Of a DNA stretch of 55,607 nucleotides, positions 170 through 17,478 are shown piece by piece (positions within the stretch are counted from its first letter, which is position 1; the number at the start of each line of letters is the position of its first letter). This DNA comes from Campylobacterales bacterium (GTDB lineage: Bacteria > Campylobacterota > Campylobacteria > Campylobacterales > Sulfurimonadaceae). A model generated the notes under the pieces. The model was not told where the DNA came from, made no database searches, and saw only the letters and a list, made by a program, of their open reading frames with translations. The stretch covers positions 1-55,607 of the forward strand of contig JAPLGO010000027.1 of assembly GCA_026390115.1 (NCBI GenBank). Direction: 5' to 3'. Both the position numbers and the translations under genes were made by a program.

Positions 170-257
170 ACCTACAAAGGAATTTTCTTCCCTATTAAGA
201 CCGTTCAAGATAGATCAAAACTTCTTTCACCCATTTTATCAACTTCGCCAATTAATT

Positions 258-920: not shown

Positions 921-997
921 ACCAAGCCCCTGTTCATAGATTTCAATTCATCCCATTTTCACAATTATACCGTAATCATTATCGTTATTAATGATGT

Positions 998-1003
998 TAT
1001 AAT
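998..1003 (+). promoter_or_regulatory. Candidate -10 box (TATAAT) for the DHp-receiver gene
   Basis: A perfect TATAAT lies 31 bases upstream of the ATG at 1034, in the intergenic gap between two divergent genes. The open frame could also start at the ATG at 1004, but that codon touches the -10 box and would lie before the expected transcription start near 1010. This supports the downstream start. No good -35 box is visible. Confidence 0.45.
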
Positions 1004-1033
1004 ATGCGCATTACAAAGGGCCAAAGGGGTTTC

Positions 1034-1816: not shown

Positions 1817-1818
1817 TT

Positions 1819-2856
1819 ATGATTTTGAAAGAGAGCGGTATCTCAAAAGTGTTAATTGTCGATGATAATGCTGAAAATATAGTAATTCTTTTGCAGATGC
1901 TGGAGTCTCCAAATGTTGAATTTTTTGTGGCTTTGAATGGAAAAAATGCTCTAAAATACGCCATTTCACACGATTTTGACCTTATTTTACTTGATGTAAT
2001 TATGCCGGACATGGATGGCTATGATGTTTGTACAAAAATAAAAAATAATCCACAAACCAAAGATGTACCGCTCATTTTTGTATCTGCGCTTAGTGGGGTT
2101 GAAGATAAGATAAGGGGCTTTTCCTGCGGTGCAGATGATTACATTACCAAACCTTTTCTGCAAACAGAGTTAGTTGCAAGAGTAAAGTTGCACCTTCAAA
2201 AAAGCATGCTAATCAAATCACTGAAACAGCTTTTAAGAAGGTCATACCATGAACTGTATAATCCTCTTGCCATAATTAATACATCCATTGAACTCCAAAA
2301 TATAAAACATGGAAACAGCCGCTATGTAGATGCAATAACGGTTGCCTCAAAAACACTCCGGCTCGTCTATGATGATTTGCATTACTCACTCTCTTCAAGA
2401 GAACAGCATGAAAAAATATTGTCGATTGATCTTGTTAAGTTTTTGCAAGAGAGAATAAACTATTTTTATCATCTTACAAATAATAAAAATATTAGCATTG
2501 TTTTTGAGTATTTAACAAAAAGTAAAATACAAATGCGAGAAGCAGATTTACAACGCATGGTTGATAATACACTTTCCAATGCCATTAAACATGCCAAAGA
2601 GGACACAACTATTTTTATAGAAATAAAAAATAGTAAAGAGAGCGTACTTTTTGGGTGTCAAAATAGCGGCACAACCATAAGTAATCCTCACATGATTTTT
2701 GAAAAAGGGTACAGAGAAAATTTTGAGCAAATAGGCATGGGAATCGGGCTTGAAATTGTTGCATCTATATGCCACATATACGAAATAAAAGCGGAGGTAA
2801 CTTCTGAAGATGGTGTTACATCGTTTAAATATATAATACCCAAATCGCTCTCTTAA
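1819..2856 (+). CDS. Receiver-histidine kinase (hybrid sensor kinase)
   Basis: A 345-aa protein with an N-terminal receiver domain (acceptor D59 in LLDVIMPDMDGYD, K111 in TKPF) followed by a histidine kinase core. H144 in YHELYNPLAII is the likely phosphorylated histidine, DNTLSNAIKHA near residue 249 is the N box, and GMGIGLEIV near 307 is the G box. There is no membrane segment or PAS sensor, so it is probably cytoplasmic and takes input through its receiver. The start is ATG 1819, preceded by GAGAG; a TTG at 1813 is a less likely alternative. It follows the DHp-receiver gene by two bases, and the two probably form a phosphorelay. Confidence 0.85.
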   Translation: MILKESGISKVLIVDDNAENIVILLQMLESPNVEFFVALNGKNALKYAISHDFDLILLDVIMPDMDGYDVCTKIKNNPQTKDVPLIFVSALSGVEDKIRGFSCGADDYITKPFLQTELVARVKLHLQKSMLIKSLKQLLRRSYHELYNPLAIINTSIELQNIKHGNSRYVDAITVASKTLRLVYDDLHYSLSSREQHEKILSIDLVKFLQERINYFYHLTNNKNISIVFEYLTKSKIQMREADLQRMVDNTLSNAIKHAKEDTTIFIEIKNSKESVLFGCQNSGTTISNPHMIFEKGYRENFEQIGMGIGLEIVASICHIYEIKAEVTSEDGVTSFKYIIPKSLS

Positions 2857-2956
2857 TCAGACTTCTTTCACACCCATCTTTTAGTACATTTCACAAGCGA
2901 CGAAAGAATTCCGTTTATGAAAAAAGTCAATTCTAATAAAATGCTATTCATCTGCA

Positions 2957-3046
2957 CTAATACTCATCACTAAAAGTCACCCTATTTAAATACATCGCCA
3001 TACAAACTAAACTGCAAAATGTCGCTGCAAACAATACATCTAACAT
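2957..3046 (-). CDS. Possible 29-aa membrane miniprotein
   Basis: This short frame lies in the 303-base gap between the receiver-kinase and the FIST kinase. It starts with ATG seven bases after a clear AAGGA ribosome binding site and encodes 29 residues. Residues 2-20 (LDVLFAATFCSLVCMAMYL) would make one hydrophobic transmembrane helix, followed by a polar tail ending in DEY. It has no homologue I recognise. The good Shine-Dalgarno site and the hydrophobic composition are the only support. The rest of the 2857-3159 gap shows no other gene. Confidence 0.35.
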   Translation of the reverse strand: MLDVLFAATFCSLVCMAMYLNRVTFSDEY

Positions 3047-3159
3047 AATAAATTCCTTTTTGTTTTAAAAAATTATACAAAAGAAGTATGGAACTTTTAT
3101 GAATAAATAGTAGATTTAAAGAGATGGCTATTTATGAGCCTTACCTCTTTAATTTTCCA

Positions 3160-5139
3160 TTATTTTCCATCTCCTCCGGCACAAACAATTTCAAAAACAG
3201 TACCGCCGTTTGTTGCTTTATATACTAAATCACCGTTAAAACTTCTTTTCATAATATCCATGCTCATGTAAAGACCGATTCCGGTACCCTTTCCCTGCTC
3301 TTTTGTTGTAAAGTAGGGGTTAAATATTTTCTCTCTCACACTCTCATCTATTCCGCCTGCATTATCCTCTATGGATATTACGGGAATTTTATTTCTCATA
3401 AATATAGTTATGTTTATGAATTTATCAGCCTTTTCTAAACCGTCAAAAGCATCTCTCGCGTTTGAGAGTATATTTATAATAACCTGCTCCAGTAAATCTT
3501 CATACCCCACCAGAGAGATATTTTTATTTGTTATCTCTATGTTGAGCGCTATATTATGGTTACTAAGCTGAGTCCCCATAATCTGCACAATGGCATCGAC
3601 TGTGTGAGAGAGCCTGAATGGCTGAGACTCCTTTGCCGGTTTTACAAAATTCATGAAGGTATCAATAGTAGAAGACATCTTTTGGCACTGATTTTGAATA
3701 AATTCGCTACTCTCTTGCACCTTTTCAGGTTCTAATTTTCCAATGCTCGAGAGAATTGACAAGCTTATACCGGTGGCACTTATCGCACTTAAAGGCTGTC
3801 TCCATTGATGAGCTATCATCCCTATCATCTCTCCCATTTGAGCTAATTTATTTTTTTGAAAATTCTGCTGCGCCTGCTCTTTGTTTTTTTGTATCTCCGC
3901 GTCTATCCTCTCTTGCCACTCTCTTGCGATAACATTTGTCATGTGCGTCAATGCATGCATCATATTATTTTCTGAAGTCTCATCCTCTCTGCTTTTTTCT
4001 GCACTGTTTTCCTTCGAACTGTTTAAAGAATCCGATTCGCTGAGTGTTACAATTGTGATTGCCTCATTTAACAGATGATTCTCTTTGTTATTTGAATAAA
4101 ATTCGCCATAAGCGTAAAAACCGCTCACACTGCAATATTTAGTGAGTTTTCTTAACTCAAAAAAACTTTCATCACCCAATAGATGGCGCCTTGCCATACA
4201 TGAGTAAACAAAAATTGATTCAGGCGTAGATGAATTTCTGAATTCTTTGTCTATGGATATACTGTCTCTTAATATGAGTTCTATACTTCCTACTCCAAAG
4301 CGTACCAACTCACTCTCTTTTATATCTCCCGTAAAAAGGAGTGAGCCGTCCTCGTATTTATGAATACATGCGCGGGCTATGCTCATGCCGTCTTTCTCAA
4401 TTATAAGTGGAATTTCTATACCTATTTTTGGTAAAAGTTCTGATATGTCATCACCAAAATATTTTTTATAAACATCTATAATGGGTACACCATTTAACTC
4501 ATACACCCTGTTTTCATAACTTCTTGTTATTTTCATGGGTAAACCGACGGCAGTACAGCCAAGCTGATACTGATTTTGCACATGCAGCTCTTTGCCCTTT
4601 AACACAACTCCAACTGCACCTTTAGAGATAACCTTCGATTGATGACTAATATATGTTCGTTCAAAATTAGCATTATCGCCCGCCATGCCACCTGAAACAA
4701 TATACTTTCCTTTGACGATGCTTGTAACGCCATTAAGAAACTGTTCCCCATTTATATCTAGTCCTGAAGTAAAAAGAATCATTACTTTAACATCATCGCT
4801 ATCGAGTAAAAAGGCTATATCTCTGCCCATGTTAAACGAATCGCTTTCATATTCAACCTCAGCGGAGTGTATAGTAGTTTTTTCAAAGAGTGAAAAACTT
4901 ATGATTATCTCATTTGCAGTAACATTGTTATCACAAATTTCTCCATCTGTCGTTGTACCTATAATATGTGCTTTTGGAAGATTCTTACTCAAGAATGAAG
5001 CGATTTTTTGCATCACATCTTCTTGTGGAATTCCATTAAAAAACTGAACAAAACACTCACTCTTCGCAGTGATGGTGTGCTCTTTCAGCCACTTCTTCAG
5101 TAATTCTTTGTTCTCATATTTATAATTTAATGTGTACAT
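3160..5139 (-). CDS. FIST-domain sensor histidine kinase
   Basis: A 659-aa protein. Residues about 25-215 look like a FIST_N domain and 220-360 like FIST_C, a sensory module thought to bind small ligands such as amino acids. After a low-complexity Ser/Glu-rich linker and a coiled-coil (about 390-435) comes the kinase core: H-box AHQWRQPLSAI with H444, an N box NILSNARDA, DNAGGI, and G boxes GKGTGIGLYM. There is no transmembrane helix, so it is cytosolic. ATG 5139 follows AAAAGGGG at good spacing. The response-regulator gene lies 84 bases upstream on the same strand and is the obvious partner. Confidence 0.88.
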   Translation of the reverse strand: MYTLNYKYENKELLKKWLKEHTITAKSECFVQFFNGIPQEDVMQKIASFLSKNLPKAHIIGTTTDGEICDNNVTANEIIISFSLFEKTTIHSAEVEYESDSFNMGRDIAFLLDSDDVKVMILFTSGLDINGEQFLNGVTSIVKGKYIVSGGMAGDNANFERTYISHQSKVISKGAVGVVLKGKELHVQNQYQLGCTAVGLPMKITRSYENRVYELNGVPIIDVYKKYFGDDISELLPKIGIEIPLIIEKDGMSIARACIHKYEDGSLLFTGDIKESELVRFGVGSIELILRDSISIDKEFRNSSTPESIFVYSCMARRHLLGDESFFELRKLTKYCSVSGFYAYGEFYSNNKENHLLNEAITIVTLSESDSLNSSKENSAEKSREDETSENNMMHALTHMTNVIAREWQERIDAEIQKNKEQAQQNFQKNKLAQMGEMIGMIAHQWRQPLSAISATGISLSILSSIGKLEPEKVQESSEFIQNQCQKMSSTIDTFMNFVKPAKESQPFRLSHTVDAIVQIMGTQLSNHNIALNIEITNKNISLVGYEDLLEQVIINILSNARDAFDGLEKADKFINITIFMRNKIPVISIEDNAGGIDESVREKIFNPYFTTKEQGKGTGIGLYMSMDIMKRSFNGDLVYKATNGGTVFEIVCAGGDGK

Positions 5140-5994: not shown

Positions 5995-6370
5995 GGGGCT
6001 GACCTGGTTTCGACGGGATCAAGTAGCTTCTAATTGCATGTCGGACTGAGCATTCCGTTACGCGGCTCAACTTGCTTAAACGCAAACAATACAAATTACC
6101 GCCCAGCTTACGCAGTAGCATAAGTTTTATCCCCTTCTTAGAAGGCGGGCTGCTTCACCTGTTGACTCTAGATAGACAGGATTCGAAGTATAACCCTTAT
6201 GTAGATATATTTTGTGTTTGTCTCGCACACAAAATGAACCCCAGAGGCTCGTCTTGCGTAGCTTTGCAAGTTGTGTGAAGCAAGATTAAACTTTAACAAT
6301 TTTTCTAAACATGTAGACGTTAGGAGTAGCGTGGTTTCGGACTGGAGTTCGATCCTCCACAGCTCCACCA
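5995..6370 (+). ncRNA. ssrA: tmRNA (transfer-messenger RNA)
   Basis: A one-piece tmRNA of 376 bases. The 5' end GGGGCTGACCTGGTTTCGAC is the standard tmRNA start, and the 3' end has a T-arm with GGTTTCGGACTGGAGTTCGA, then CAGCTCC and ACCA. The 5' GGGGCTG pairs with CAGCTCC to form the acceptor stem. The tag frame begins with GCA at 6082 and reads A-N-N-T-N-Y-R-P-A-Y-A-V-A, then TAA at 6121-6123, followed by a stable hairpin. It rescues stalled ribosomes and marks the product for proteolysis. The last 14 bases are part of the 23-bp repeat that bounds the genomic island downstream, so the island supplies or restores the 3' end of this gene. Confidence 0.97.
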
Positions 6371-6478: not shown

Positions 6479-6572
6479 TTTTTAGGGATAGATTTAGGGA
6501 TTAGTAAATATTTTCCCTATTAATTAATAAATAGTTATCCCTAAACATAAATAATTTTGGAGTTATCCCTAT
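6479..6572. promoter_or_regulatory. Cluster of AGGGATA repeats, candidate integrase arm sites (left)
   Basis: Five copies of a motif close to TAGGGATA lie between the left att core and the integrase start: two direct copies at 6483-6490 and 6495-6502, and three inverted copies at about 6512-6521, 6535-6544 and 6563-6572, the last touching the integrase ATG. The double direct copy (6479-6501) is repeated exactly at the other end of the island (17166-17188). Tyrosine integrases bind such arm-type sites on both sides of the core. The copy over the start codon could also let the integrase repress itself. This role is inferred. Confidence 0.55.
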
Positions 6573-7794
6573 GGCAAGAGCAACAACACCATTAACAGCC
6601 AAAGAAATACAATCAGCAAAACCAAGAGATAAGGAATACAAGCTTTTTGATGGCGGTGGTCTTTATTTAGCTATTACACCCAATGGTGGCAAATGGTGGA
6701 GACTAAAATATCGTTTAAACAACAAAGAGCATAGATTGTCTGTAGGTGTGTATCCTGCTACATCTCTTCAAGAAGCAAGAAAGAGTAGAGAATTACTTAA
6801 AGAGCAAATTGCCAAAGGCATAAATCCTAGCAATGAGAGAAAGGACAAAAAAGAGGCTGAGTCAATCCAAGAGATTAAAGACCTCAACACATTTGAAAAA
6901 GTTGCGAGAGAAAGACTTTCAAAAGTGCAAAATGAAATAAGTGTAGCTCATCACAATAGAACCTTGAATGCTTTTGTAAATGATTGTTTCCATATTATTG
7001 GGTTTATGCCTATCGATGAAATAGAGCCAAAACATATTTTAGTAATACTTCATACAATGGCAGATAGAGATGTGAAAGAAAGTGCTAGAAAACTTTTTTA
7101 TGCAATAAGTAAAACTTTTAAATGGGCTGTAGCCAATGGCAAAGCCAAAAGAAATCCTGCTAATGATATTTTACTAGAAGAGATTTTAGGAAAAAAATCA
7201 AAAAAACATTACCCTACTATAATTGATGACAAAGGAATAAAAAGTTTATTGCTCTCTATAGATAGCTACACAGGTGAGCATACTACAAAACAAGCTCTAA
7301 AAATGTTATCGCATGTATTTGTGAGACCGTATAATATTCGTCATGCTGAATGGGATGAAATAAACTTTAAAAATAAACAGTGGAGTATTCCATCCAACAA
7401 AATGAAAACCAAAGAAGAATTGATAGTTCCTCTTACGGATACAGTTATTGATATATTAAAAGATATGAGAGAATATACAGGAAATGGCAAATATATTTTT
7501 CATAGTCCAAGAGGGAAAACAAGTCCTATGAGTGAAAATACTTTGCTAGGTGCAATAAGAAGATTGGGATATACTAAAGATGAATTTGTTCCGCATGGTT
7601 TTAGAGCAATGCTGAGTACAGTTGCTCATGAAAAAAGTAATTTTAAACATGAGGTCATAGAAACACAATTGGCACATAGTGTAGGGAATTCAGTAAGTCA
7701 AGCATATAATAGAGCGCAATATCTTGATGAAAGAGTGGAGTTAATGCAATGGTGGAGTGATTATCTTGATAATCTATTGCTAGAAAATTATTAA
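6571..7794 (+). CDS. Tyrosine integrase, P4-type, of the ssrA island
   Basis: A 407-aa site-specific recombinase. Residues about 5-90 form the N-terminal arm-binding domain typical of P4/bacteriophage-type integrases (LFDGGGLYLAITPNGGKWW). Residues 105-200 are the core-binding helices and 215-395 the catalytic domain. The catalytic residues visible are R257 (in NIRHAEW), H342 and R345 (PHGFR), H369 (LAH) and nucleophile Y379 (QAYNRAQYL), so it looks active. GGAG lies eight bases before ATG 6571. It is next to the ssrA att site and in the same direction, so it presumably integrates and excises this island at ssrA. Confidence 0.95.
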   Translation: MARATTPLTAKEIQSAKPRDKEYKLFDGGGLYLAITPNGGKWWRLKYRLNNKEHRLSVGVYPATSLQEARKSRELLKEQIAKGINPSNERKDKKEAESIQEIKDLNTFEKVARERLSKVQNEISVAHHNRTLNAFVNDCFHIIGFMPIDEIEPKHILVILHTMADRDVKESARKLFYAISKTFKWAVANGKAKRNPANDILLEEILGKKSKKHYPTIIDDKGIKSLLLSIDSYTGEHTTKQALKMLSHVFVRPYNIRHAEWDEINFKNKQWSIPSNKMKTKEELIVPLTDTVIDILKDMREYTGNGKYIFHSPRGKTSPMSENTLLGAIRRLGYTKDEFVPHGFRAMLSTVAHEKSNFKHEVIETQLAHSVGNSVSQAYNRAQYLDERVELMQWWSDYLDNLLLENY

Positions 7795-8149
7795 CAGTCC
7801 AAGAAGCTCTAATCACTTTAGAGTACTATAGACAATAACTATTTCAACTAAGAAATTTCACTAAGTACTTTAGACTACTTTTACTAAAAATTTACCCAGT
7901 GTACCACAAAAGTTAAAAGCAGATAGTCTAAAACCAGTATAAGAGCATGAGAATGAATTATGTGAAAACAGTGCAAACAACTTCAACTTTCCTTTCCCTA
8001 TATAAGAATAAAAAAAGAAAATGAAAAAATTCTAGAATTATATATAGAATATAGTTGAATGATTATCTACTCTTAACCTGAAAATTAAATCAATATAATC
8101 TAAAAGTTCGTTGGTTATAATCAATATAAATATAATAGTGGGTCAGATT
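7795..8149. other. Gene-free AT-rich stretch after the integrase
   Basis: About 355 bases without a credible reading frame. It contains one copy (7912-7945) of a 34-bp near-repeat found again at 15789-15822, and an AT-rich zone before the first AlpA-like gene. No clear terminator or consensus promoter stands out. Confidence 0.5.
7912..7945 (+). repeat. 34-bp imperfect direct repeat, left copy
   Basis: This 34-base stretch contains ATAGTCTAAAA, a three-base variable part, and GTATAAGAG, preceded by GTTAAAA. The copy at 15789-15822 matches it at 29 of 34 positions in the same orientation. The pair brackets the regulator and helicase/nuclease cargo but not the integrase or the toxin-antitoxin genes. 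Its function is unknown. Confidence 0.55.
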
Positions 8150-8413
8150 ATGAAGAAGATAGAAGATTATATGCGAGCAAAAGATATTGTGAGAATATAT
8201 GGGATAAGCTTATCCACAGTTAAAAATTGGCAAAAAACAGGAAAACTTAAAGTGCTACATGTAAGTTCTAAAAAAATATTATTTTTAAAAAAAGAAGTGG
8301 AAGCTCTTTTTAATCCATCTTTAGGGAAAAAAATGAGATTTTTAAATAACAAAACAAAAATTAAGTACTTTACTAAAATATTTTTCAGACGCGAAATACA
8401 AAAAGACGAATAG
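8150..8413 (+). CDS. AlpA/excisionase-like helix-turn-helix protein, copy 1
   Basis: An 87-aa protein from ATG 8150; an upstream ATG at 8111 lacks a ribosome site. Residues about 5-60 form a MerR/AlpA-like winged helix: YMRAKDIVRIYGISLSTVKNW then GKLKVLHVSSKKILFLKKEVEALFNPS. The last 25 residues are very basic. Proteins of this type act as excision factors (Xis) or transcriptional activators in small integrative elements. It is one of three diverged relatives in this island (with 8758 and 9580), all sharing the pattern [YW]-[ML]-R-A/P-x-[DE]-hydrophobic. It is isolated by more than 300 bases on each side, so it is probably expressed from its own promoter. Confidence 0.65.
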   Translation: MKKIEDYMRAKDIVRIYGISLSTVKNWQKTGKLKVLHVSSKKILFLKKEVEALFNPSLGKKMRFLNNKTKIKYFTKIFFRREIQKDE

Positions 8414-8757
8414 TTTGTTAGATATTTACATAATTTCATAACTACAAATCTTATATATTTCTTGGTTTAGCCAAAGTAGTCTCATAGTTTTTTAATAAAT
8501 AGGCATTAAAATATAAAAAAATAATTCTTATATTTTTTTTATAAAACGCATATCATTCTGCATTATATACAACAACAAGCCTAAAATAGGCACTTAAAAG
8601 CAATAAAATACTTACATCATTTATAACACACTTCTTTTATTACACAAAATAAACAACTTTTATATCGCACCAGCTGAGTAAGGTTAAATCATATGAGTCA
8701 GTATCATAAGTAACATTAGCGATACAAAATGTATTGACTAAAACAAAAGGTGTAAAC
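8414..8757. other. AT-rich intergenic stretch with one short hairpin
   Basis: About 340 bases without a credible gene. The only structure I see is a perfect inverted repeat GCCTA-AAA-TAGGC at 8579-8591, not followed by a T run, so it is more likely a binding site than a terminator. The stretch just before 8758 presumably holds the promoter of the five-gene run that begins there. Confidence 0.4.
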
Positions 8758-9021
8758 ATGAACAATAGATTGCTATTGAAAAAAAAGAAAACTCAGATAC
8801 AAGAGAGTGATTATTTACGACCAAATGAAGCAATGGAGCTGTTTAATATAAAGCGGAGTACTTTTTGGTATTGGGTATCTATAGGAAAAATACATACCAT
8901 TAAAAGAAGTGAACGAGTCACTACGGTATCGAAGCGAGAGCTTGATGAATTGTTTAACCCATCTATTAAAGATGAAATTGTTTCAAAAAAAACAAGAATA
9001 GCTCGAAGAAGAAAAAAATGA
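8758..9021 (+). CDS. AlpA/excisionase-like helix-turn-helix protein, copy 2
   Basis: An 87-aa protein. ATG 8758 follows AAAAGGTG at good spacing and is preferred over a TTG at 8734. After a Lys-rich start, residues about 20-70 repeat the AlpA-like fold of the other two copies: YLRPNEAMELFNIKRSTFWYW, then IHTIKRSERVTTVSKRELDELFNPS. The C-terminus ends in a run of Arg and Lys. Its stop codon overlaps the ATG of the repeat protein (ATGA), so the two are translationally coupled. It is a probable DNA-binding regulator or directionality factor of the island. Confidence 0.65.
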   Translation: MNNRLLLKKKKTQIQESDYLRPNEAMELFNIKRSTFWYWVSIGKIHTIKRSERVTTVSKRELDELFNPSIKDEIVSKKTRIARRRKK

Positions 9022-9587
9022 GTATTTCAACTTCACCTATTAAAGTTAAAGGATTCAACTCTTTACTTGTAAAAAAACAAAAACTTTCGGATAGTGAAAT
9101 GATAAAAATATATCTTGATAATTTGGCTAATCCTAACTACACTTCTCCTGACACAAAAAAGCACATTTCAAATAAAGTGCAATGCAGAAGAACAAATGGT
9201 CTATCGATAAAAAAGACTTCTTCTGTCAGAGAAAGATTGATGCAAAAAGGTAGCCAATATTTAACCATTAAGTCAGTGCACAACAAAAATGGTCTCAGGA
9301 GAGAAAGGAGTGGTTCGCTGATAAAAAAGAATTCTTTTGTCAGAGGAGGATTGATGCATAAAGACAAGCTATCTCAACTAAGATTTGGAATTCTCAAGAA
9401 GGGATATAGCAAAAATGGTCTTATGAGAGAAAGGAGTGGTTCACTGATAAAAAAGACTTCTTCTATCAGAGAAAGAGAATTCAACTTTATAATGCCCTCT
9501 GTATATAAGCCTTTTAAGGAAGCTAAAGAGGGAATAATAGGTGGGAAAGAAAGACAAAAAATGATAAAAGGAAAACAATATGTTTAA
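9018..9587 (+). CDS. Repeat-rich basic protein of unknown function
   Basis: A 189-aa, strongly basic protein starting in an ATGA overlap with the AlpA-like gene. It contains three copies of a repeat at residues about 60-76, 91-113 and 133-153, built around SLIKKTSS-[VI]-RERLM and, in copies 2 and 3, preceded by NGL-x-RERSG. The matching DNA repeats each contain an inverted repeat (for example CTGATA...TATCAG at 9444-9469). There is no membrane segment, enzyme motif or family I recognise. It could be a nucleic-acid-binding protein, or the DNA repeats rather than the protein may be the functional part. The tight coupling to genes on both sides supports it being translated. Confidence 0.5.
   Translation: MSISTSPIKVKGFNSLLVKKQKLSDSEMIKIYLDNLANPNYTSPDTKKHISNKVQCRRTNGLSIKKTSSVRERLMQKGSQYLTIKSVHNKNGLRRERSGSLIKKNSFVRGGLMHKDKLSQLRFGILKKGYSKNGLMRERSGSLIKKTSSIREREFNFIMPSVYKPFKEAKEGIIGGKERQKMIKGKQYV
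9195..9476 (+). repeat. Three DNA repeats with internal inverted repeats
   Basis: Three related units start near 9195, 9285 and 9412. The most similar pair (units 2 and 3) share AGAGAAAGGAGTGGTTC, one variable base, then CTGATAAAAAAGA, and a TCAGAG after a short T/C-rich part. Within each unit, CTGATA and TATCAG/TGTCAG can pair to form a stem. The spacing is irregular (90 and 127 bases) and the copies lie in a reading frame, so this is not a CRISPR array. Confidence 0.6.
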
Positions 9588-10614: not shown

Positions 10615-13600
10615 TTGAATTTAAAAATAGATACAAAAAAATCACACAGTAAAGAGATAGAAGAATTTTTAAGATTAAAGGATAAAAAATCAGGTCAGAG
10701 AAAATATCAGATTGAAGCTTATGATAGTTTAAATGATAAATTACTAAATGATGATTCAAGGATAGCGGGATTGTTAGTTTTACCTACAGGTGGAGGCAAA
10801 ACAAGAGTAGCAGTAAGCTGGGCTTTGGATAAAGCGGTAAATCAAGGATACAAAGTCTTATGGATAGCTCACAGACATATGTTACTAGAGCAAGCATATC
10901 ATGCATTTTATAAATTTTCTGGATTGGTTGACAAAGATAAGTTGCAAATCAAAATCGTATCAGGTAAAAATAATCATTCAAATCCAAAAGAGATAAATTA
11001 TAAAGAAGATGACATTGTTATAGCCATGATTGATTCTCTAAGAAACAAGAAATTGTTAAGAGAAAAATTCAAGAATATAGACAAATTACTGGTGATTGTT
11101 GATGAAGCGCATCATGCCCAAGCAGATACATATTATGATTGGCTAGGTATTTTAGATGAAAAATCAGATAAAAATTCTGGTTGGTTTAGAAAACAATACA
11201 GAGATAACAAGATAAAAAAGCTGAAAATATTAGGTCTTACAGCTACACCAATAAATTCAAATAGCAGAAAAGAAGAAAAGCTAAAAGCAATTTTCGATGG
11301 TAAACAAGCATTATTTAAAATAAATACATCTGAATTAATGAAATTAGGAATATTAAGTAGACCTATATTGAATCAAATATCAACAGAGTCTTTAGTGGAT
11401 ATGGATGCTAAAAATCTTGAGGGAACAAAGCAACAAGTAGAAGATAGTCTCAATAAGCAATTAGCAGAAAATGCAGATAGAAATCATTTTATTATTGAAA
11501 CATATAAAAAATCATATCAAGATGGGAAGAAAACATTAATATTCGCAGTTAATAGAAAGCATGCAGATATATTGCAGGGGTTTTTTAAGCAAGATGGATT
11601 TGAGTGTGAAACAGTTTACAGCGGTAAGGATTATTCTAAAGAAGAAGGTTATGATAAAAAAACCAACAATGATGAAATCATAGATAAATTCAGAAAAGAA
11701 GACAGTGGATTAAACATCTTAATAAATGTGGGTATCTTAACAGAGGGTAGCGATATCCCAAATATTCAAAATCTTTTCATTACAAGAATTGTCGGTAGTG
11801 AAACACTTTACACACAAATGATTGGTAGAGCGTTAAGGGGATTATCTTCTGGGGGTACGAAATATGCAAACATCGTAACATTTGAGGATAACATAAAAAA
11901 TTATTCTAATATTTTATCTTTAAAAGATATATTAGCTGATGGAGGCTGGGAGCCTGATGATATTTCAGAAAAATCATTAAAAGATATAGATGTTTGGAAT
12001 GATAAAAAATATTCAATTATCCAAATTCAAGATATTTTGATGAAAGCTCACGAAAAGCTTGATGAAGATGGCTTTGTCAAAAGAAAATATCGATACAAAA
12101 TGTTAAGTTTAGAAAAATTAAAAAATTTTAATTTAAATGAAGATACAGAAGAGAATAAAAAATGTTGCTATATTCTTGCACAAAGAGATATGAGAAAAAA
12201 AACAAATGATTGGAATTTTGAGAGAAAAGAGCAGTTTAGCTTTGTTACTAATGAGAAAAGTGATTTCATAGAATATGATGAAACAAAGGAAGATTTTTAC
12301 TTTATTACTCAAAAAGAAGATATACGGCTTCCTAGGTTAGAGACAAGATATTTTCAAAAATATTATAATGAAATAAGAACAAATTCTAATTTTGGAGATG
12401 CTGAAATATTGCCAAGCTATGGTATTCCAGTTGGAGAGTATGAGCTAAGGGATTTTGAAGATAATATTATTGATAGAATTCCTGTATTTAAGTATCAGCA
12501 AAATAGTTATAAAAGATTTTTAGATGCATATTCTAACAACAACGACATCATCTATTCGAATAATATTAAGTCCGTTAAGGATAGCTATTTTTCAGAAGCA
12601 AATAATTTCATAGCTGTGAGTGAAAGAGCTTTATCTAATTTAATCAATCGTTTAAAAGAGCATTCCGTATATGAGTTTATAGAATATGAGTTTGATAGAA
12701 TGGATGAGGTAGAAGATTTTATTGAAAATTTAGCAAGAAGATGGGCTAACAAAGAAGAATTTAATTTAGACACTCAATATGATAATAATGAATCTACACA
12801 GAGTATATATTCTAGAAAAGCATTTAGAGATGAGGTGCAGTCTAGAGCGGATATAATCAATGGCTATGAAGAGGAAGCAGGCAAGATTGTTACAATAGAA
12901 AGAGAATGGCTAAAATTAGAGCGTTTCACATATAGAAAGGATGATGAATTCAACAAAATTCATGACATTAGTAAAATTTACAATTCAGCATCTAAATTAG
13001 TTTGTAAAAATTTAAATTATGAAACAGAAATATTGAAATTCTCTCCAAAAGAAGCTCAATGGTCAAAGAAAGCATATAAAAGCTATATGGGCACTGCTAA
13101 TGGAATTAATATTTATACAAAACATATCGAAGATAAATCACAAATTATTGTCAATAGTATCTTATGTTCTAAATCTATTCCAAGCTTTGTTGTTGAATAT
13201 ATTATGTATCACGAAATGTTGCATTTTGAATTAAGAGCTGGACATACTCCTGAATTTAGAAAATTTGAAGCAATGCATCCTCATCATGCAGAAGCACAAC
13301 AAATTTTAGCTGAAGTGAGTGATTGGATTGATAATTTTTATGATGACAATTATAGATTATATAGTCTTGAACAATATACAATCGTAGAGGCGAAGAAGCT
13401 AATAGAGGAAAAAAAGTTAATATTGCCATCAATAAAAGAGTTAAGCATATTGTGTAGCACAGATGCTAAATTTCATTATAAAAATATTAAAGAAAATGAT
13501 GTCAGATGGTTTTTATCAAATGATTTGATATATGGATATTCATCATATACAATTCCAAGTGATTGTACGGAAAAACAAGTTATGCTAATGTCAAAAAATT

Positions 13601-13620
13601 TAGTACAGGACAATATTTAA
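10615..13620 (+). CDS. DEAH-box SF2 helicase with C-terminal SprT-like metallopeptidase domain
   Basis: A 1001-aa protein starting at TTG 10615 behind AAAAAGGAAA. The N-terminal half is a superfamily 2 helicase/translocase: QRKYQIEA (Q-like), Walker A LPTGGGKTR (56-64), DEAH (163-166), TATP (209-212), and motif VI QMIGRALRG (401-409). A middle region (about 440-700) is acidic and unassigned. Residues about 790-920 contain HEMLH (866-870), then GHTPEF with H877. This matches the HExxH...GHxPEF zinc-binding pattern of SprT/SPRTN proteases, which cut DNA-bound proteins. All core motifs are intact. It heads a four-gene run with a one-base gap to the EVE-HNH nuclease gene. Inferred role: the motor and protease of a DNA-targeting defence system. 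A general repair function is the alternative. Confidence 0.9.
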   Translation: MNLKIDTKKSHSKEIEEFLRLKDKKSGQRKYQIEAYDSLNDKLLNDDSRIAGLLVLPTGGGKTRVAVSWALDKAVNQGYKVLWIAHRHMLLEQAYHAFYKFSGLVDKDKLQIKIVSGKNNHSNPKEINYKEDDIVIAMIDSLRNKKLLREKFKNIDKLLVIVDEAHHAQADTYYDWLGILDEKSDKNSGWFRKQYRDNKIKKLKILGLTATPINSNSRKEEKLKAIFDGKQALFKINTSELMKLGILSRPILNQISTESLVDMDAKNLEGTKQQVEDSLNKQLAENADRNHFIIETYKKSYQDGKKTLIFAVNRKHADILQGFFKQDGFECETVYSGKDYSKEEGYDKKTNNDEIIDKFRKEDSGLNILINVGILTEGSDIPNIQNLFITRIVGSETLYTQMIGRALRGLSSGGTKYANIVTFEDNIKNYSNILSLKDILADGGWEPDDISEKSLKDIDVWNDKKYSIIQIQDILMKAHEKLDEDGFVKRKYRYKMLSLEKLKNFNLNEDTEENKKCCYILAQRDMRKKTNDWNFERKEQFSFVTNEKSDFIEYDETKEDFYFITQKEDIRLPRLETRYFQKYYNEIRTNSNFGDAEILPSYGIPVGEYELRDFEDNIIDRIPVFKYQQNSYKRFLDAYSNNNDIIYSNNIKSVKDSYFSEANNFIAVSERALSNLINRLKEHSVYEFIEYEFDRMDEVEDFIENLARRWANKEEFNLDTQYDNNESTQSIYSRKAFRDEVQSRADIINGYEEEAGKIVTIEREWLKLERFTYRKDDEFNKIHDISKIYNSASKLVCKNLNYETEILKFSPKEAQWSKKAYKSYMGTANGINIYTKHIEDKSQIIVNSILCSKSIPSFVVEYIMYHEMLHFELRAGHTPEFRKFEAMHPHHAEAQQILAEVSDWIDNFYDDNYRLYSLEQYTIVEAKKLIEEKKLILPSIKELSILCSTDAKFHYKNIKENDVRWFLSNDLIYGYSSYTIPSDCTEKQVMLMSKNLVQDNI

Positions 13621-13621
13621 A

Positions 13622-14488
13622 ATGGAAAAAGAAAATTATTTATATCTAATGTGTAATCCTGATAAGTGGTTTGGAGAAAAACATTTAGACAATTATAAAA
13701 CAAATGATATTTTGTACAATCTTTCATCTCATGCGTGGAGTGTTAGCCATTTAAAAAACATCCATATAGGTATGCTAGGCATATTAAAGGTCAGCAGGGA
13801 TGATAGAGCTATCGATTTACTAAAGAAGCATAATGTGGCTAAGCTAGAGAGTGGTATATATGCTACCTTTGAAGTAATTGATTTCATTCCTGATAGAATA
13901 GATGGAAAAGTGACAATAAAGATAGTTGATAATTTTTTTCATCAAAATAGAATACTCAATAAAGAAAAGACAAAAGAAATTCTAGGCGATAAATATAATG
14001 CTCAGAGCCAAGGGTATATTCATAAGAGTATATATGATTTAGTATATGAAAATGTGCAAGCAATCACATATATTGATTTGCCAAAGCTAAGAAAAAATCT
14101 CATAGTCCAAGAAGCTGTAGAAGTATATCCGAGAGATGAGGAAGAGAAAAGGGAAGCTTTAATTTTGGCAAAGTACAAATGTGAGCTAGAAGAAAATCAT
14201 ATGACATTTACATCTAACGCAACAAGTGAAAATTATGTAGAGGGTCATCATCTTATACCTATTAGCCAATATGTCCACTTTGATAATGATGTGGATGTAA
14301 GAGCCAATATTGTTTCTCTTTGCCCAACTTGTCATAGAATGTTGCATTATGGTGAAAAAGAAGAAGTGCACAATGCTTTATCAGCTCTATATTCAAAACG
14401 GATAAATCGTTTAAAGAAAGTTAATTTAGATATTTCACTAGAAAAATTACATACATATTACAAAAGCAATGAAGTATGCAAAAATTAA
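13622..14488 (+). CDS. EVE-like domain plus HNH endonuclease
   Basis: A 288-aa protein. The C-terminal third is an HNH nuclease: C187, YVEGHHLIP with H209/H210, N229 (in ANIVSLCPTCHRMLHYG), C234, C237, H238 and H242. The N-terminal part (about 1-95) has the pattern of an EVE/PUA-fold domain: YLYLMCNPDKW, AWSVSHLKNIHIGMLGILKV and SGIYATFEVIDF. EVE domains read modified bases, and EVE-HNH proteins are known modification-dependent restriction enzymes. The EVE call was made by eye and is less certain than the HNH call. The gene starts one base after the helicase stop and overlaps the next gene by 13 bases. It probably cuts DNA recognised or processed by the helicase. Confidence 0.85.
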   Translation: MEKENYLYLMCNPDKWFGEKHLDNYKTNDILYNLSSHAWSVSHLKNIHIGMLGILKVSRDDRAIDLLKKHNVAKLESGIYATFEVIDFIPDRIDGKVTIKIVDNFFHQNRILNKEKTKEILGDKYNAQSQGYIHKSIYDLVYENVQAITYIDLPKLRKNLIVQEAVEVYPRDEEEKREALILAKYKCELEENHMTFTSNATSENYVEGHHLIPISQYVHFDNDVDVRANIVSLCPTCHRMLHYGEKEEVHNALSALYSKRINRLKKVNLDISLEKLHTYYKSNEVCKN

Positions 14489-14901
14489 AACAATTCATGA
14501 ACTCTAGCGGCGTGCACAGCCACAATCAAAATGAAATATTAAGGATGATAGAAGGTCATAATTTAAATGTACTATCGGAAGAAGATTTTATTAACGCACT
14601 AAGCTATGGAGAGGAAATAATAACTGTAAATATTTCAAGAGAATATGCAAAAGAAAAAAATGAAAACTTTCAGCATGTAACAGATTATATAAAAAACTCT
14701 AAAGCAATAATTTCAATACTTGAAATAAATAACGCTGATGAGCTTGAAGAAGATGATAAGTTAATGATGAAATATATTTGTGACAATTCTAATATTGATG
14801 CTTTGTGCTTTCTCGATTATAGGCTTGTAGCAGATATCTCTGAGGCTAGAATCATGTTCCTCTTTGCTGGATATAAAAAAGGAGTAGCATGCAAAAATTA
14901 A
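14476..14901 (+). CDS. Protein resembling an isolated FtsZ C-terminal domain, copy A
   Basis: A 141-aa protein that starts inside the nuclease gene (13-base overlap, shared ATGCAAAAATTAA). It is a diverged duplicate of the next gene: both begin MQKL-x-x-[FL]-M-N, continue with EILR and LSEEDFI-x-AL, and end with an F-x-x-GYK segment. The layout (MQKLKQFMNSSGV; AIISILEINNADELEEDDKLM; DALCFLDYRLVADISEARIMFLFAGY as separate blocks) resembles the two-layer C-terminal domain of FtsZ (ADVKTVMSEMG; GVLVNITGG; IFGxxxDPxLxDxVxVTxIATG). No GTPase domain is present. The function is unknown; it might contact FtsZ or form filaments, but that is speculation. Confidence 0.7.
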   Translation: MQKLKQFMNSSGVHSHNQNEILRMIEGHNLNVLSEEDFINALSYGEEIITVNISREYAKEKNENFQHVTDYIKNSKAIISILEINNADELEEDDKLMMKYICDNSNIDALCFLDYRLVADISEARIMFLFAGYKKGVACKN

Positions 14902-15605
14902 GTCATTTAATGAATCCCCTCAACATACCATATGCAGCTCAACTAGAAATATTAAGAGTTACAGGGGATACACTTTTTATGCTTTCAGAAGAAGATTTTA
15001 TTGAAGCATTAGAGGTTGAAGGTGAAATAATGACACTGAGACTTTCGGAATATGATTTGCAACAAGAAAATGAAAATAATCAGAGCATTAAAGGTTATGT
15101 GATAAATTCACAATCTATCCTTATTGTTTTTGAATCGCTTGATGAAGTAGTGTCAAAAGAAAATGAATTATTTATGGATTATATTTACGAAAATACTAAA
15201 GATGATACTACTGTAAAATTCGGTCTTTTAATAGTTCCTAGACTTTCTGAAGTACCTATATCGTTGCTTCTTACCGGCTACAAAGAGAATGAAGACATTA
15301 AATTATCATGTGGCAATAATTATATATTTTTTTGGACAGAACAGCAAACTTATTGCATGCAACAGTTTAAAGAGATGAGAGAGCGAATTTCTAAAAAAGT
15401 TGATGTAGATGTAAAAAGTATCAGACTGTTAAGCGACTCATATAATTCAAAAAATATGGTACAAGCATTTGATGTTAAAAATGACATGGCGCTTAAAGCT
15501 TTTGAGTTTAATCACAGTACAAAAGAAGAATTTAATATTTTTATAGAGAAATTAGAAAATTTGTTGATAGATTTTTATTCCTCAAGTGTTGATTTAAGAG
15601 ATTAA
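14889..15605 (+). CDS. Protein resembling an FtsZ C-terminal domain with extra C-terminal domain, copy B
   Basis: A 238-aa protein and the last gene of the operon. It overlaps copy A by 13 bases with the same ATGCAAAAATTAA junction. Residues 1-130 are related to copy A and fit the FtsZ C-terminal pattern better: MQKLSHLMNPLNIPYAAQ, SQSILIVFESLDEV, then VKFGLLIVPRLSEVPISLLL ending in TGYKE. Residues 135-238 are an extra domain of unknown fold, starting CGNNYIFFWTEQQ and ending with a helical segment. There are no catalytic motifs. Coupled translation with the nuclease and copy A implies a fixed ratio, as for subunits of one complex. Confidence 0.72.
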   Translation: MQKLSHLMNPLNIPYAAQLEILRVTGDTLFMLSEEDFIEALEVEGEIMTLRLSEYDLQQENENNQSIKGYVINSQSILIVFESLDEVVSKENELFMDYIYENTKDDTTVKFGLLIVPRLSEVPISLLLTGYKENEDIKLSCGNNYIFFWTEQQTYCMQQFKEMRERISKKVDVDVKSIRLLSDSYNSKNMVQAFDVKNDMALKAFEFNHSTKEEFNIFIEKLENLLIDFYSSSVDLRD

Positions 15606-15848
15606 ATTAAAATATTATATTAGTGCTGAGAGTAACAAAAACATATCTAATAAAGCGAATTAAGATAAATTCATATCAGAAGGTTAGATAGGCTTCTTTT
15701 GGAGCTTGCAGAGTAAGCAATCTAAAGAAATCATTTCTTCTTCTCTGTTAGATGAAAAAGTATAAAAAACTATAGGGAATTAGTAGAGGTTAAAACCATA
15801 TAGTCTAAAATAGGTATAAGAGATAGGGACTTATGATTAGATGTAGCT
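15606..15848. other. Intergenic stretch after the helicase operon
   Basis: No credible gene. It holds the right copy of the 34-bp near-repeat. There is an imperfect inverted pattern around AGAAATCATTTCTTCTTCTCT near 15727, but no stem followed by a T run that would make a convincing terminator. Confidence 0.4.
15789..15822 (+). repeat. 34-bp imperfect direct repeat, right copy
   Basis: This copy matches 7912-7945 at 29 of 34 positions, in the same orientation, and lies just after the helicase/nuclease operon. See the left copy for the pattern. Confidence 0.55.
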
Positions 15849-16010
15849 ATGACTCCAACTGAACTGTTCTTGGGTTTGGTTAAAAAGTTTAACTATGAAA
15901 ACTTTAAAAAAAATACACGAGACCCTTCTCCTGAAATTCTATCATATCTTAAAACTATACAAGACGAATTATATAATGAACTTAAGATAGAAACAGCCAA
16001 ATACTATTAA
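15849..16010 (+). CDS. Possible 53-aa ORF
   Basis: A frame of 53 codons from ATG 15849 with a plausible soluble, helical product (MTPTELFLGLVKKFNYENF at the start; ILSYLKTIQDELYNELK near the end). There is no strong ribosome binding site upstream, so it may be a remnant of a longer gene or unexpressed. I recognise no family. It lies between the helicase operon and the toxin-antitoxin genes. Confidence 0.35.
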   Translation: MTPTELFLGLVKKFNYENFKKNTRDPSPEILSYLKTIQDELYNELKIETAKYY

Positions 16011-16109
16011 AATACAAAATCATTGTTTAGTTATGTTATGTCAAATATATATTTGCGAAAAAAGCATATTTTGATGATGTTCTGCACCAAATATTTCTAT
16101 AGAGTAAAA

Positions 16110-16118
16110 TGTTATAAT
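16110..16118 (+). promoter_or_regulatory. Extended -10 promoter of the MNT/HEPN genes
   Basis: TGTTATAAT is a perfect extended -10 element (TG, one base, TATAAT) located 25 bases before the ATG at 16144, with AAGGAG between them. It gives the toxin-antitoxin set its own promoter inside the island. Confidence 0.5.
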
Positions 16119-16143
16119 GCCATAGAAGATAAGGAGATTTATA

Positions 16144-16431
16144 ATGACAAAATCAGATATATTAAACTATTTAAAAGAGCATTATGAAGAATTTAAGGGT
16201 CGGTACGATGTTGAGAAAATTGGTCTTTTTGGGAGCTATGCAAGAGATGAAGCAACTCAAGATAGTGATGTGGATATTTTTGTAACAATGAAACCTAATA
16301 TGTTTGATATGATAGCTATCAAAGAACAGATAGAAGAAGACCTACATACAAAGGTTGACATTATAAGAGAACATAAAAATATTAAGCCTTTCTTTTTAGA
16401 GATAATAAATAAAGATTTGGTTTATGCTTAG
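16144..16431 (+). CDS. Minimal nucleotidyltransferase (MNT/MntA-like antitoxin), copy 1
   Basis: A 95-aa minimal nucleotidyltransferase. G30-S31 in GLFGSYARDEATQDSD, D42 and D44 in SDVDIF, and D72 in KVDII are the nucleotide/metal-binding residues, all present. Family members (MntA) transfer AMP to a HEPN toxin and so neutralise it. ATG 16144 follows AAGGAG. It is followed by a second MNT gene and then a HEPN gene, forming a three-gene MNT-MNT-HEPN set. The two MNT proteins are clearly related (MTK-x-[DE]-IL at the start, VEKIGLFGSYA). Confidence 0.9.
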   Translation: MTKSDILNYLKEHYEEFKGRYDVEKIGLFGSYARDEATQDSDVDIFVTMKPNMFDMIAIKEQIEEDLHTKVDIIREHKNIKPFFLEIINKDLVYA

Positions 16432-16453
16432 TGACAAAGACATGGAGCTTGTA

Positions 16454-16744
16454 ATGACAAAAGATGAAATATTAAATGAACTATCTAAAAACAAAAACTA
16501 CATCAAAGAGCATTTTGAAGTAGAGAAAATAGGCTTATTTGGTAGCTATGCAAAAGATAAGCAAACTCAAGATAGTGACATAGATATTTATGTAGAGTTT
16601 AAACATAAAACATTTGATAATCTAGCAGGGCTTTGGAACTACTTAGAAGAGCTCTATCATAAGAAGATAGACTTATTTCATAAACATAAAAATAACAACC
16701 AAGTCATTATCTCAAATATTCAAAAAGATGTGATTTATGGATAA
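16454..16744 (+). CDS. Minimal nucleotidyltransferase (MNT/MntA-like antitoxin), copy 2
   Basis: A 96-aa protein from ATG 16454 (GGAG upstream); an in-frame ATG at 16424 inside the previous gene is less likely because alignment with copy 1 begins at MTKDEIL. It keeps G30-S31, D42/D44 (SDIDIY) and D73 (KIDLF). The Arg that follows SYA in copy 1 is Lys here (SYAKDK). It overlaps the HEPN gene by eight bases, so it is the direct partner by position. Whether both copies modify the toxin is unknown. Confidence 0.88.
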   Translation: MTKDEILNELSKNKNYIKEHFEVEKIGLFGSYAKDKQTQDSDIDIYVEFKHKTFDNLAGLWNYLEELYHKKIDLFHKHKNNNQVIISNIQKDVIYG

Positions 16745-17105
16745 AGCAAACAACAAAGAGTTACTACAATTCATCTTAGATAGTATTGTGATGATTAAAA
16801 AAAGATTTGATGGAATTATGAGTAGTGATGATTTTATGTATAGTGAAGAAGGCATGACTAGATTGGATGCTATATCTATGAGATTGCAATCTATTGGTGA
16901 GGCATTAAAAAATATTGATAAAAGAGACAGAGACTTTTTGTTGGAAGTTGCCGATAAAACATATTGGAGCAACATAATAAAAACAAGAGAGATAATAACT
17001 CATCATTATATTGATATAGACTCTGAAACGATTTTTATGATTTGTGATGAAAAACTAAATGAGCTTGAAAAAAAGATATCAAGCTTAATGAATAAGTTAA
17101 ATTAG
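16737..17105 (+). CDS. HEPN-domain toxin (HepT/DUF86-like)
   Basis: A 122-aa helical protein with the HEPN catalytic motif R-x4-H-x-Y: R84-E-I-I-T-H89-H-Y91. Upstream it has the usual DUF86/HepT helix with RLDAISMRLQSIGEALKNI. HEPN proteins of this family are RNases or tRNA-targeting toxins, inactivated when the partner MNT attaches AMP to the Tyr of this motif, which is present here. It is the last gene of the MNT-MNT-HEPN set and the last gene of the island. Likely role: island maintenance or phage-induced growth arrest. Confidence 0.9.
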   Translation: MDKANNKELLQFILDSIVMIKKRFDGIMSSDDFMYSEEGMTRLDAISMRLQSIGEALKNIDKRDRDFLLEVADKTYWSNIIKTREIITHHYIDIDSETIFMICDEKLNELEKKISSLMNKLN

Positions 17106-17165
17106 GTCGTTTGTAAAAAGAATTTATCTTAAACGGAAAACAAAGAAAATATTAGGTCACATTTG

Positions 17166-17188
17166 TTTTTAGGGATAGATTTAGGGAT
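17166..17188 (+). repeat. Double AGGGATA repeat, candidate integrase arm site (right)
   Basis: A 23-bp exact copy of 6479-6501 in the same orientation, containing two AGGGAT units 12 bases apart. It lies 52 bases inside the right att core. Having the same element near both ends, outside any gene, fits arm-type sites used by the integrase. Confidence 0.65.
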
Positions 17189-17239
17189 AACAATTTTTAT
17201 AATTGTTATAAATCCCAATACTAAGGATATGATGGTTCC

Positions 17240-17262
17240 CCACAGCTCCACCATCACTCAAT
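17240..17262 (+). repeat. Right attachment repeat (att core)
   Basis: An exact 23-bp copy of 6357-6379 (tmRNA 3' end plus nine bases). Upstream bases do not restore the tmRNA T-arm, so this is the leftover ancestral end of ssrA after integration. It marks the right boundary of the island. Confidence 0.93.
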
Positions 17263-17478
17263 TTAAAAATATAAGAATCTCTTTTTAGCCTACAAAACGC
17301 AAACTTTTTCAGCCTATTCACAATCTGAGTAGTCCAAGGCTTTTTACAGTAATTTAACCCTTATTTACATCTAATGCATTCTATTGACCTTATTTAAGCT
17401 CTATTAATTCTAATTGTAATAATCGATTAACAAAACATAAACTATAATGTCTTTTTTAAAAATTAACACGGATTTATT

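Follow-up and report, generated by a model that had tools for sequence, protein, structure and literature searches.

A putative restriction-type gene module with remotely FtsZ-like partners on a tmRNA-associated island of a Campylobacterales bacterium

Gene content of the locus

The window, meaning here the whole 55,607-nucleotide stretch of DNA that was analysed (contig JAPLGO010000027.1 of a Campylobacterales bacterium), holds a low-GC island of ~10.9 kb inserted at the tmRNA gene and bounded at both ends by a 14-base repeat (Table 1). Two matches of such a repeat arose in none of 100 shuffled controls. The island carries its own tyrosine integrase, which shares 78% identity with the one found near a related operon in another genome (G128). 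The initial annotation had placed the genes of interest in an integrase-bearing island, and the integrase, the tmRNA site and the repeats all agree with this. Four linked plus-strand genes lie inside it, separated by a 1-base gap and then by two 13-base overlaps, an arrangement that had been described exactly; they encode HEL (1001 aa), HNH (288 aa), FZ1 (141 aa) and FZ2 (238 aa), with the overlaps tying HNH, FZ1 and FZ2 together. The TTG start of HEL is preceded by AAGGAAAG; a promoter and terminator scan performed no better than chance.

Table 1. Features of the island and of its insertion site
Feature	Position	Strand	Evidence or remark
tmRNA gene	5995..6370	+	ARAGORN; Rfam RF00023, E 2.8e-59; its 3' end is the island's left attachment site
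Left copy of the direct repeat CCACAGCTCCACCA, putative att core	6357..6370	+	
Tyrosine integrase	6571..7794	+	Pfam Phage_integrase, 1.1e-17
HEL, SF2 helicase with SprT/YgjP-like HExxH..H motif	10615..13620	+	Pfam, alignment
HNH, reader-like N-terminal domain (~1-150) and McrA-like HNH nuclease	13622..14488	+	Pfam, PADLOC, PDB
FZ1, paralogue of the first half of FZ2, remote FtsZ C-domain resemblance	14476..14901	+	Profile comparison
FZ2, remote FtsZ C-domain-like region (~1-137) and X domain (~138-238)	14889..15605	+	Profile comparison
Adjacent cassette encoding two MntA-like nucleotidyltransferases plus one HepT-like protein	16144..17105	+	All below NCBIfam cut-offs
Right direct repeat CCACAGCTCCACCA, island end	17240..17253	+	

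The helicase and the nuclease

HEL is made of an SF2 helicase core at about residues 29-410 (Pfam ResIII, E 1.6e-25; Helicase_C, 3.2e-12), a long middle region and a C-terminal HExxH..H motif of the SprT/YgjP-like zinc-protease type near residues 866-877; HEMLHFELRAGHTPEF can be read directly in the translation. The HExxH and its downstream histidine are kept in all five aligned copies of the helicase. A helicase with a HExxH domain is what had been proposed, and the helicase and the motif stand. Of four copies compared with the Pfam YgjP-like family, G128's alone exceeds the cut-off, and the match of the window copy is weak (E 0.003). SprT-family proteases take part in the repair of DNA-protein crosslinks in animals. 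Twelve genome-contig loci with SprT-type proteins of 151-442 aa were free of HNH, FZ and full HEL relatives, and the helicase-tail fragments in two further genomes (G136 and G092) were weak and were dropped before the operon count.

HNH contains the nuclease domain of a restriction family (Pfam HNH, 1.8e-6; PADLOC mREase_IV, 8e-11), and its residues 156-265 match EcoKMcrA (PDB 6ghc) with an E-value of 2.4e-7, in line with the nuclease assignment made earlier. But what does the N-terminal domain resemble? It had been called EVE-like, and sequence comparison gives this no support for the window protein: the N-terminus has no Pfam match, none of six members of its family matches EVE (PF01878) at E 1, no significant EVE or PUA match was found for the window reader, and the A10 reader gave no PDB match. 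A different reader, in a locus of genome G478, has a weak EVE match (E 0.014, below the cut-off). The window's reader family also occurs fused to GmrSD_N in genome G032, where a DNA methylase and a helicase lie nearby. The HNH model from an AlphaFold run without relatives was unusable (pLDDT 29).

The FtsZ-related proteins

FZ1 and FZ2 are paralogues (38% identical), and their annotation as a pair resembling the FtsZ C-terminal domain survives in a qualified form: a bridging protein favours it, the resemblance is remote and the direct profile results are mixed. The top NCBIfam match of FZ2 is ftsZ, with an E-value of 0.014 that is far below the cut-off, and its PADLOC match to BrxB is weak (0.009); FZ1 has no match in either collection. 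The bridge is L044, an intermediate protein which scores above the Pfam FtsZ_C cut-off and matches the FZ2 family with P 4e-7, and the chain from the FZ2 family through L044 to FtsZ_C is significant. In a profile ranking (A3) all seven FtsZ proteins came first, the lowest at 21.8 against 21.2 for the best decoy, a result that depends on L044, itself an FtsZ_C protein; a five-row profile without L044 put the best FtsZ at rank 17 of 202. A 13-row profile of the FZ2 half, also built without L044, gave a moderate outcome, with FtsZ at ranks 1, 2, 5, 7, 10, 13 and 59 of 202 and all seven aligned at FtsZ residues ~271-339, and adding FZ1 weakened these ranks to 3, 5, 6, 12, 14, 17 and 177. These comparisons point to a resemblance to the FtsZ C-terminal domain that is real but remote, the direct link between FZ1/FZ2 and FtsZ being weak. 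Neither protein matches the GTPase domain in Pfam, and they lack the combination of both domains and T7-loop motif that marks members of the FtsZ family. For FZ2, AlphaFold without relatives gave a model (pLDDT 43) whose beta-alpha-beta-alpha-beta-beta order is of low confidence, and Foldseek with this model returned 0 of 661 matches at E 0.001, a list that is meaningless.

The corresponding gene in G128 encodes a protein resembling the other half of FtsZ. Its product matches the Pfam Tubulin/FtsZ GTPase family with an E-value of 5.4e-7 (30.5 bits, slightly below the cut-off of 33); a profile of the G128 and G478 proteins ranks seven of seven FtsZ proteins above 180 decoys, and the GTPase half matches FtsZ in the PDB at 1e-5. 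Judged by sequence, both proteins match the FtsZ GTPase-domain family, and the GTPase half of G128 is a firmer FtsZ match than the C-half type. The NxDxxD motif is missing from both. In G478 (contig C10, a sixth locus) a reader-PD-(D/E)XK nuclease stands beside an FtsZ-GTPase-half protein, an X domain and a 116-aa protein that is common to the G128 and G478 loci; this contig stops before the place where a helicase could appear.

The X domain was first likened to FlhA by eye, from FlhA motifs. The sole Pfam match of the G478 X protein is FHIPEP (0.018, sub-threshold), and an X-only profile built without that protein placed FlhA at ranks 1-7 among 202 proteins, with the remaining 8 of the 15 FlhA proteins at 14-179. 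A resemblance of the X domain to part of FlhA may be taken as a lead.

Distribution and conservation

The helicase is common to five loci in four genomes (G000, two in G105, G077 and G128), and an HNH gene adjoins it in every one. The next gene after HNH is FtsZ-related in each of the four loci in which it is readable, the G077 contig ending first. The slot holds C-half proteins in three loci (two such proteins in the window, one in G105:C74) and, in G128, a GTPase half together with the 116-aa protein. The question of whether the four genes co-occur, raised with the initial annotation, has a qualified answer: the helicase, HNH and FtsZ-related genes are neighbours, but the FtsZ slot varies and the set is rare.

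In the second locus of G105 (C81), the proteins are 92% (HNH), 87% (FZ1) and 96% (FZ2) identical to those of the window, with dN/dS values of 0.20, 0.44 and 0.21, respectively; the three genes are under purifying selection, and identity and dN/dS together argue that the operon is not a chance assembly. Between the two strains the DNA is ~95% identical over a stretch that begins with HNH and includes HepT, the MntA/HepT-type cassette being retained along with HNH-FZ1-FZ2, while the helicases are just 35% identical at the protein level.

Relatives of FZ2 also occur in nine genomes outside such operons (L033-L042), usually with a partner of ~150 aa, and the 4-18 kb fetched around them contain no HEL or HNH relatives. 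Searches of plasmids, viral contigs and phages yielded no FZ2, and those of plasmids and viral contigs yielded no GTPase half; no viral-contig relative was confirmed for any of six queries. Matches to BURRH look like repeat artefacts, and two weak rows were dropped before the operon count (L045, and L043, by eye an oxidoreductase).

Comparison with known systems

No name for the whole set exists in PADLOC 2.0, NCBIfam, Pfam or PHROGs. The initial annotation knew of no named system with this composition, and the PADLOC check matched no system model; the PADLOC and NCBIfam matches of HEL and HNH are generic (restriction, helicase, Cas3). Among the closest known systems, HNH is like VcaM4I in layout, an EVE-HNH modification-dependent endonuclease which likewise has a reader-sized N-terminal domain and a C-terminal HNH (PMC7897488). 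However, the window reader has no significant EVE match, the name VcaM4I is absent among the six PDB matches of the window HNH, and the word 'helicase' does not occur in the text of that paper. EcoKMcrA, the 5-methylcytosine-specific restriction enzyme A, is alike in its HNH domain, but the N-terminal part of the window protein does not match it. Bell et al. 2020 (PMC7641849), who surveyed the genomic context of EVE, report EVE-HNH architectures as well as a standalone EVE in a defence operon associated with a helicase; the passages compared here describe neither a SprT helicase nor an FtsZ-fold partner in a restriction operon.

Among the best 20 of 324 plasmid records, the best E-values for the helicase belong to two Deinococcus plasmid helicases (CP029776 and NZ_OV024759; ~30% identity), in which a C-terminal HNH fusion, seen by Pfam in the former and by eye in the latter, occupies the position of the window's SprT part. 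None of their neighbours is annotated as FtsZ-like, many being labelled 'hypothetical'. HsdR and ResIII, the helicase subunits of type I and III systems, share the ResIII/Helicase_C core, but HEL falls far below their NCBIfam cut-offs and the four genes include no methyltransferase or specificity gene. FtsZ and FtsZ-like families resemble the GTPase-like half (G128, G478) and, remotely, the C-domain-like half (window); the relatives described here are nevertheless split into halves.

A possible mechanism and its alternatives

What might these four genes do? The reading that we prefer, at a probability of about 0.46, is a mobile, rare and unnamed restriction-type defence module, nearest to the type IV (modification-dependent) kind, in which the nuclease would work with FtsZ-fold partners. 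In its favour are the island with its integrase and repeats, the EcoKMcrA-like HNH domain, the fusion of the reader family to GmrSD_N elsewhere, the linkage of helicase, HNH and FtsZ-related genes, the GTPase-half proteins of G128 and G478, the bridge through L044, the retention of HNH-FZ1-FZ2 in G105:C81 beside a differing helicase, and the HNH fusion of a Deinococcus plasmid helicase. Against it stand the FZ2 relatives outside such operons, the weak direct link to FtsZ, the weak BrxB match of FZ2, the reader's want of a significant EVE/PUA match, the small number of loci, the absence of FZ2 from the plasmids, viral contigs and phages searched, and the end of the G478 contig ahead of any helicase. 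An anti-phage system had been proposed at the outset: restriction-type parts on a tmRNA island and their linkage in relatives speak for it, and its EVE reader is not supported. The reader of HNH would recognise a feature of incoming DNA, probably a modified base, after which the McrA-like domain would cut that DNA. The helicase could translocate on it, the SprT-like protease domain stripping bound or crosslinked proteins, and FZ1 and FZ2 may bind HNH as a dedicated partner that gates or clusters it by FtsZ-type head-to-tail contacts. A broader proposal, which we regard as speculative and somewhat unlikely, is that of an immune nuclease family with FtsZ/tubulin-fold proteins as obligate partners, in GTPase-half and C-half variants that would assemble head-to-tail either on the nuclease or on the host's FtsZ. 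Were this so, bacterial immune systems would count an FtsZ-type fold among their components, a cytoskeletal fold put to immune use with its two halves in alternative versions of one operon, and helicase-protease modules would be added to modification-dependent restriction. The question would then be whether the nuclease depends on an FtsZ-like partner, and whether that partner polymerises, gates the nuclease or halts division.

FZ1 and FZ2 could instead be passengers of an ordinary type IV-like nuclease-helicase pair, co-transcribed with it and having an unrelated cellular role, as their stand-alone relatives would. The absence of HEL and HNH relatives near those proteins, the varying number and type of FZ genes and the remoteness of the FtsZ link all favour this, but an FtsZ-related gene follows HNH in every readable locus, the 13-base overlaps join the three genes, and the G478 operon connects a different reader-nuclease with the X domain and a GTPase half; we consider it unlikely. 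More improbable, in our judgement, is an abortive arm in which FtsZ-fold pieces cap host FtsZ filaments in a dominant-negative manner, being released to block division, and so to stop the infected cell, once the reader-nuclease senses phage DNA. It would account for opposite halves in one slot (three loci have the C-half type, the fourth the GTPase half), because either half might cap a filament, and the loss of NxDxxD from the GTPase halves suits binding rather than hydrolysis. There is a precedent in E. coli CbtA, a small protein which is reported to block division by binding FtsZ (PMC5624674). Yet FZ1 and FZ2 are so remote from FtsZ that a surviving filament interface is doubtful, the nearest FZ2 relatives include stand-alone proteins, and FZ2 also bears the X domain.

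The set might, lastly, be the island's own unit for DNA maintenance or DNA repair, a helicase with a DNA-protein-crosslink protease that is not antiviral. The crosslink repair attributed to the SprT family in animals (see also PMC13092972) and an integrative island with its own integrase would fit, but we hold this to be very improbable: the reader-HNH has McrA similarity, its reader family is reused in a GmrSD/methylase locus, and an MntA/HepT-type cassette adjoins the operon.

Island and operon layout

The initial annotation is exact on the four ORFs of the operon (helicase HEL, nuclease HNH, FZ1 and FZ2), their coordinates, 1-base gap and two 13-base overlaps, and these genes do lie in an integrase-bearing island, with the integrase at its left end. 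A 14-base stretch from the 3' end of the tmRNA recurs exactly and marks both island borders; this pattern, allowing up to two mismatches, occurs just twice in the window, and two matches appeared in 0 of 100 shuffles. GC content is ~0.28–0.30 within the island versus 0.33–0.42 in the rest of the window. The first two genes of the MntA/HepT-like cassette match PADLOC PDC-S09 (1e-25 and 3e-30), and the cassette is retained beside the operon on contig C81 of genome G105 (G105:C81).

Coordinates of features in the window and in fetched loci
Sequence	Coordinates	Feature
Window	6357 and 17240	Repeats bounding the island
Window	9018–9587	Very basic 189-aa ORF (net +31), repeated peptide RERSGSLIKK
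Window	13635–17267	HNH start to past HepT
Window	16144–17105	Two MntA-like nucleotidyltransferases, then HepT-like protein (all below NCBIfam cut-offs)
L044	7608–7976	Lone 122-aa FtsZ_C-domain protein, adjoining PcfJ-like protein
L075 (G128)	7333–8836	G128 operon, adjoining integrase
L117 (G478)	168–4562	Reader–PD-(D/E)XK nuclease, 116-aa protein, X domain, FtsZ-GTPase-half protein
L117 (same operon, within 168–4562)		RNase_T-family exonuclease, 194-aa protein without assignment
L118	215–1764	Tubulin/FtsZ GTPase-half protein, adjoining WYL regulator
L119	3852–6996	701-aa AAA ATPase, adjoining FtsZ/tubulin-like protein
L120	3336–6214	701-aa AAA ATPase, adjoining FtsZ/tubulin-like protein

Helicase and nuclease

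HEL has ResIII/Helicase_C domains and a C-terminal HEMLH...H motif kept in five aligned copies; the window copy gives a weak SprT/YgjP assignment, but the G128 copy exceeds the YgjP cut-off. Helicase-tail matches were found in 5/199 relatives, 3/397 of the phylum draw and 4/135 of the genus; leaving out fragments in G092 and G136, the loci are those of the window genome, G105 (two), G077 and G128. Deinococcus plasmid helicases (L083, L084) carry a C-terminal HNH domain.

The nuclease domain of HNH is McrA-like. Its N-terminal reader domain, initially described as EVE-like, has no EVE match by sequence. This domain also precedes an AAA_21 ATPase in G130 and GmrSD_N in G032, the latter in a locus that also encodes a DNA methylase and a helicase. 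Other N-termini are found on relatives of the nuclease: the G105:C74 and G077 proteins align only to window residues 142–287 and 158–269, not to the reader. The G077 N-terminus has a homologue (pairwise E 4e-10) in the N-terminus of the nuclease from G478, and that N-terminus matches EVE weakly. These differing N-termini would fit an exchangeable specificity domain.

Which genes stay together?

Do FZ1 and FZ2 serve the nuclease, block division through host FtsZ, or merely ride along as passengers? From the HNH start to past HepT the window and G105:C81 are 95.4% identical in DNA, with dN/dS of 0.20 for HNH, 0.44 for FZ1 and 0.21 for FZ2, but the G105:C81 helicase (461 residues seen) is only 35% identical to HEL, its closest relative being that of G128 (52%). 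In this single comparison FZ1 and FZ2 thus travel with the nuclease and not with the helicase, and for this reason we prefer a partnership with the nuclease over both a division block and passenger genes. The G478 operon fits this pattern; its contig stops upstream of the nuclease, where a helicase is possible.

Composition, homology, linkage, selection and mobility marks of the operon are direct observations. As to mechanism, the reader would sense modified DNA, the HNH domain would cut it, the helicase-protease may remove proteins, and contacts through the FtsZ fold could gate or cluster. Among the open-access matches listed, no title or abstract was recognised as the SprT-helicase/HNH/FtsZ combination.

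FZ2-family matches occur in 13/199 relatives (9/298 as a profile). Ten fetched loci from nine genomes (L033–L042) encode stand-alone FZ2-family proteins, nine of them together with a ~150-aa partner; HEL or HNH relatives were not found within the fetched stretches.

The FtsZ connection

Judged by profiles, the strong part of the connection is the GTPase half in G128 and G478. In G128 the gene following HNH encodes a protein resembling the GTPase-domain half of FtsZ, with a Pfam Tubulin match of 5.4e-7 (30.5 bits against a cut-off of 33). The G128–G478 profile matched 25 PDB FtsZ sequences at E ≤0.01 (best 1e-5) and placed 7/7 FtsZ over 180 decoys; both proteins are without the T7-loop motif NxDxxD. 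Among 398 genomes 49 have matches, mostly FtsZ-sized frames of 370–420 aa, and close ones occur only in G128 and G478. The 116-aa protein, 61% identical between these two, was found in 1/104 and 1/9 genomes, the two already known. The G128 operon adjoins an integrase 78% identical to that of the window, beside tRNA-Ser; no exact repeat (at least 10 bases) of the tRNA-Ser end turned up elsewhere on that strand of the contig.

FZ1 and FZ2, paralogues 38% identical, are the weak part. The top NCBIfam match of FZ2 is ftsZ (0.014), and its family profile matches L044, itself above the Pfam FtsZ_C cut-off, at P 4e-7. Ranking against 202 sequences (180 decoys, 7 FtsZ, 15 FlhA) gave a mixed picture. 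An FZ2-half profile of 13 rows without L044 put FtsZ at ranks 1, 2, 5, 7, 10, 13 and 59, matching 7/7 in one common FtsZ region (271–339); adding FZ1 dropped them to 3, 5, 6, 12, 14, 17 and 177, and a five-row FZ1/FZ2 profile alone failed (best FtsZ rank 17 of 202). The FtsZ-first ranking (7/7) by a profile that included L044 is not countable as independent for that reason. The X domain, the last ~100 residues of FZ2, placed FlhA at ranks 1–7 of 202, each match individually weak.

The AAA ATPases of L119 and L120 (49% identical), with their FtsZ/tubulin-like neighbours, are possibly another FtsZ-containing system. The L119 FtsZ-like protein exceeds both Tubulin and FtsZ_C cut-offs, has NLDIND and lies upstream of a WYL regulator homologous to that of L118, whose GTPase-half protein is above the Pfam cut-off (4e-9).
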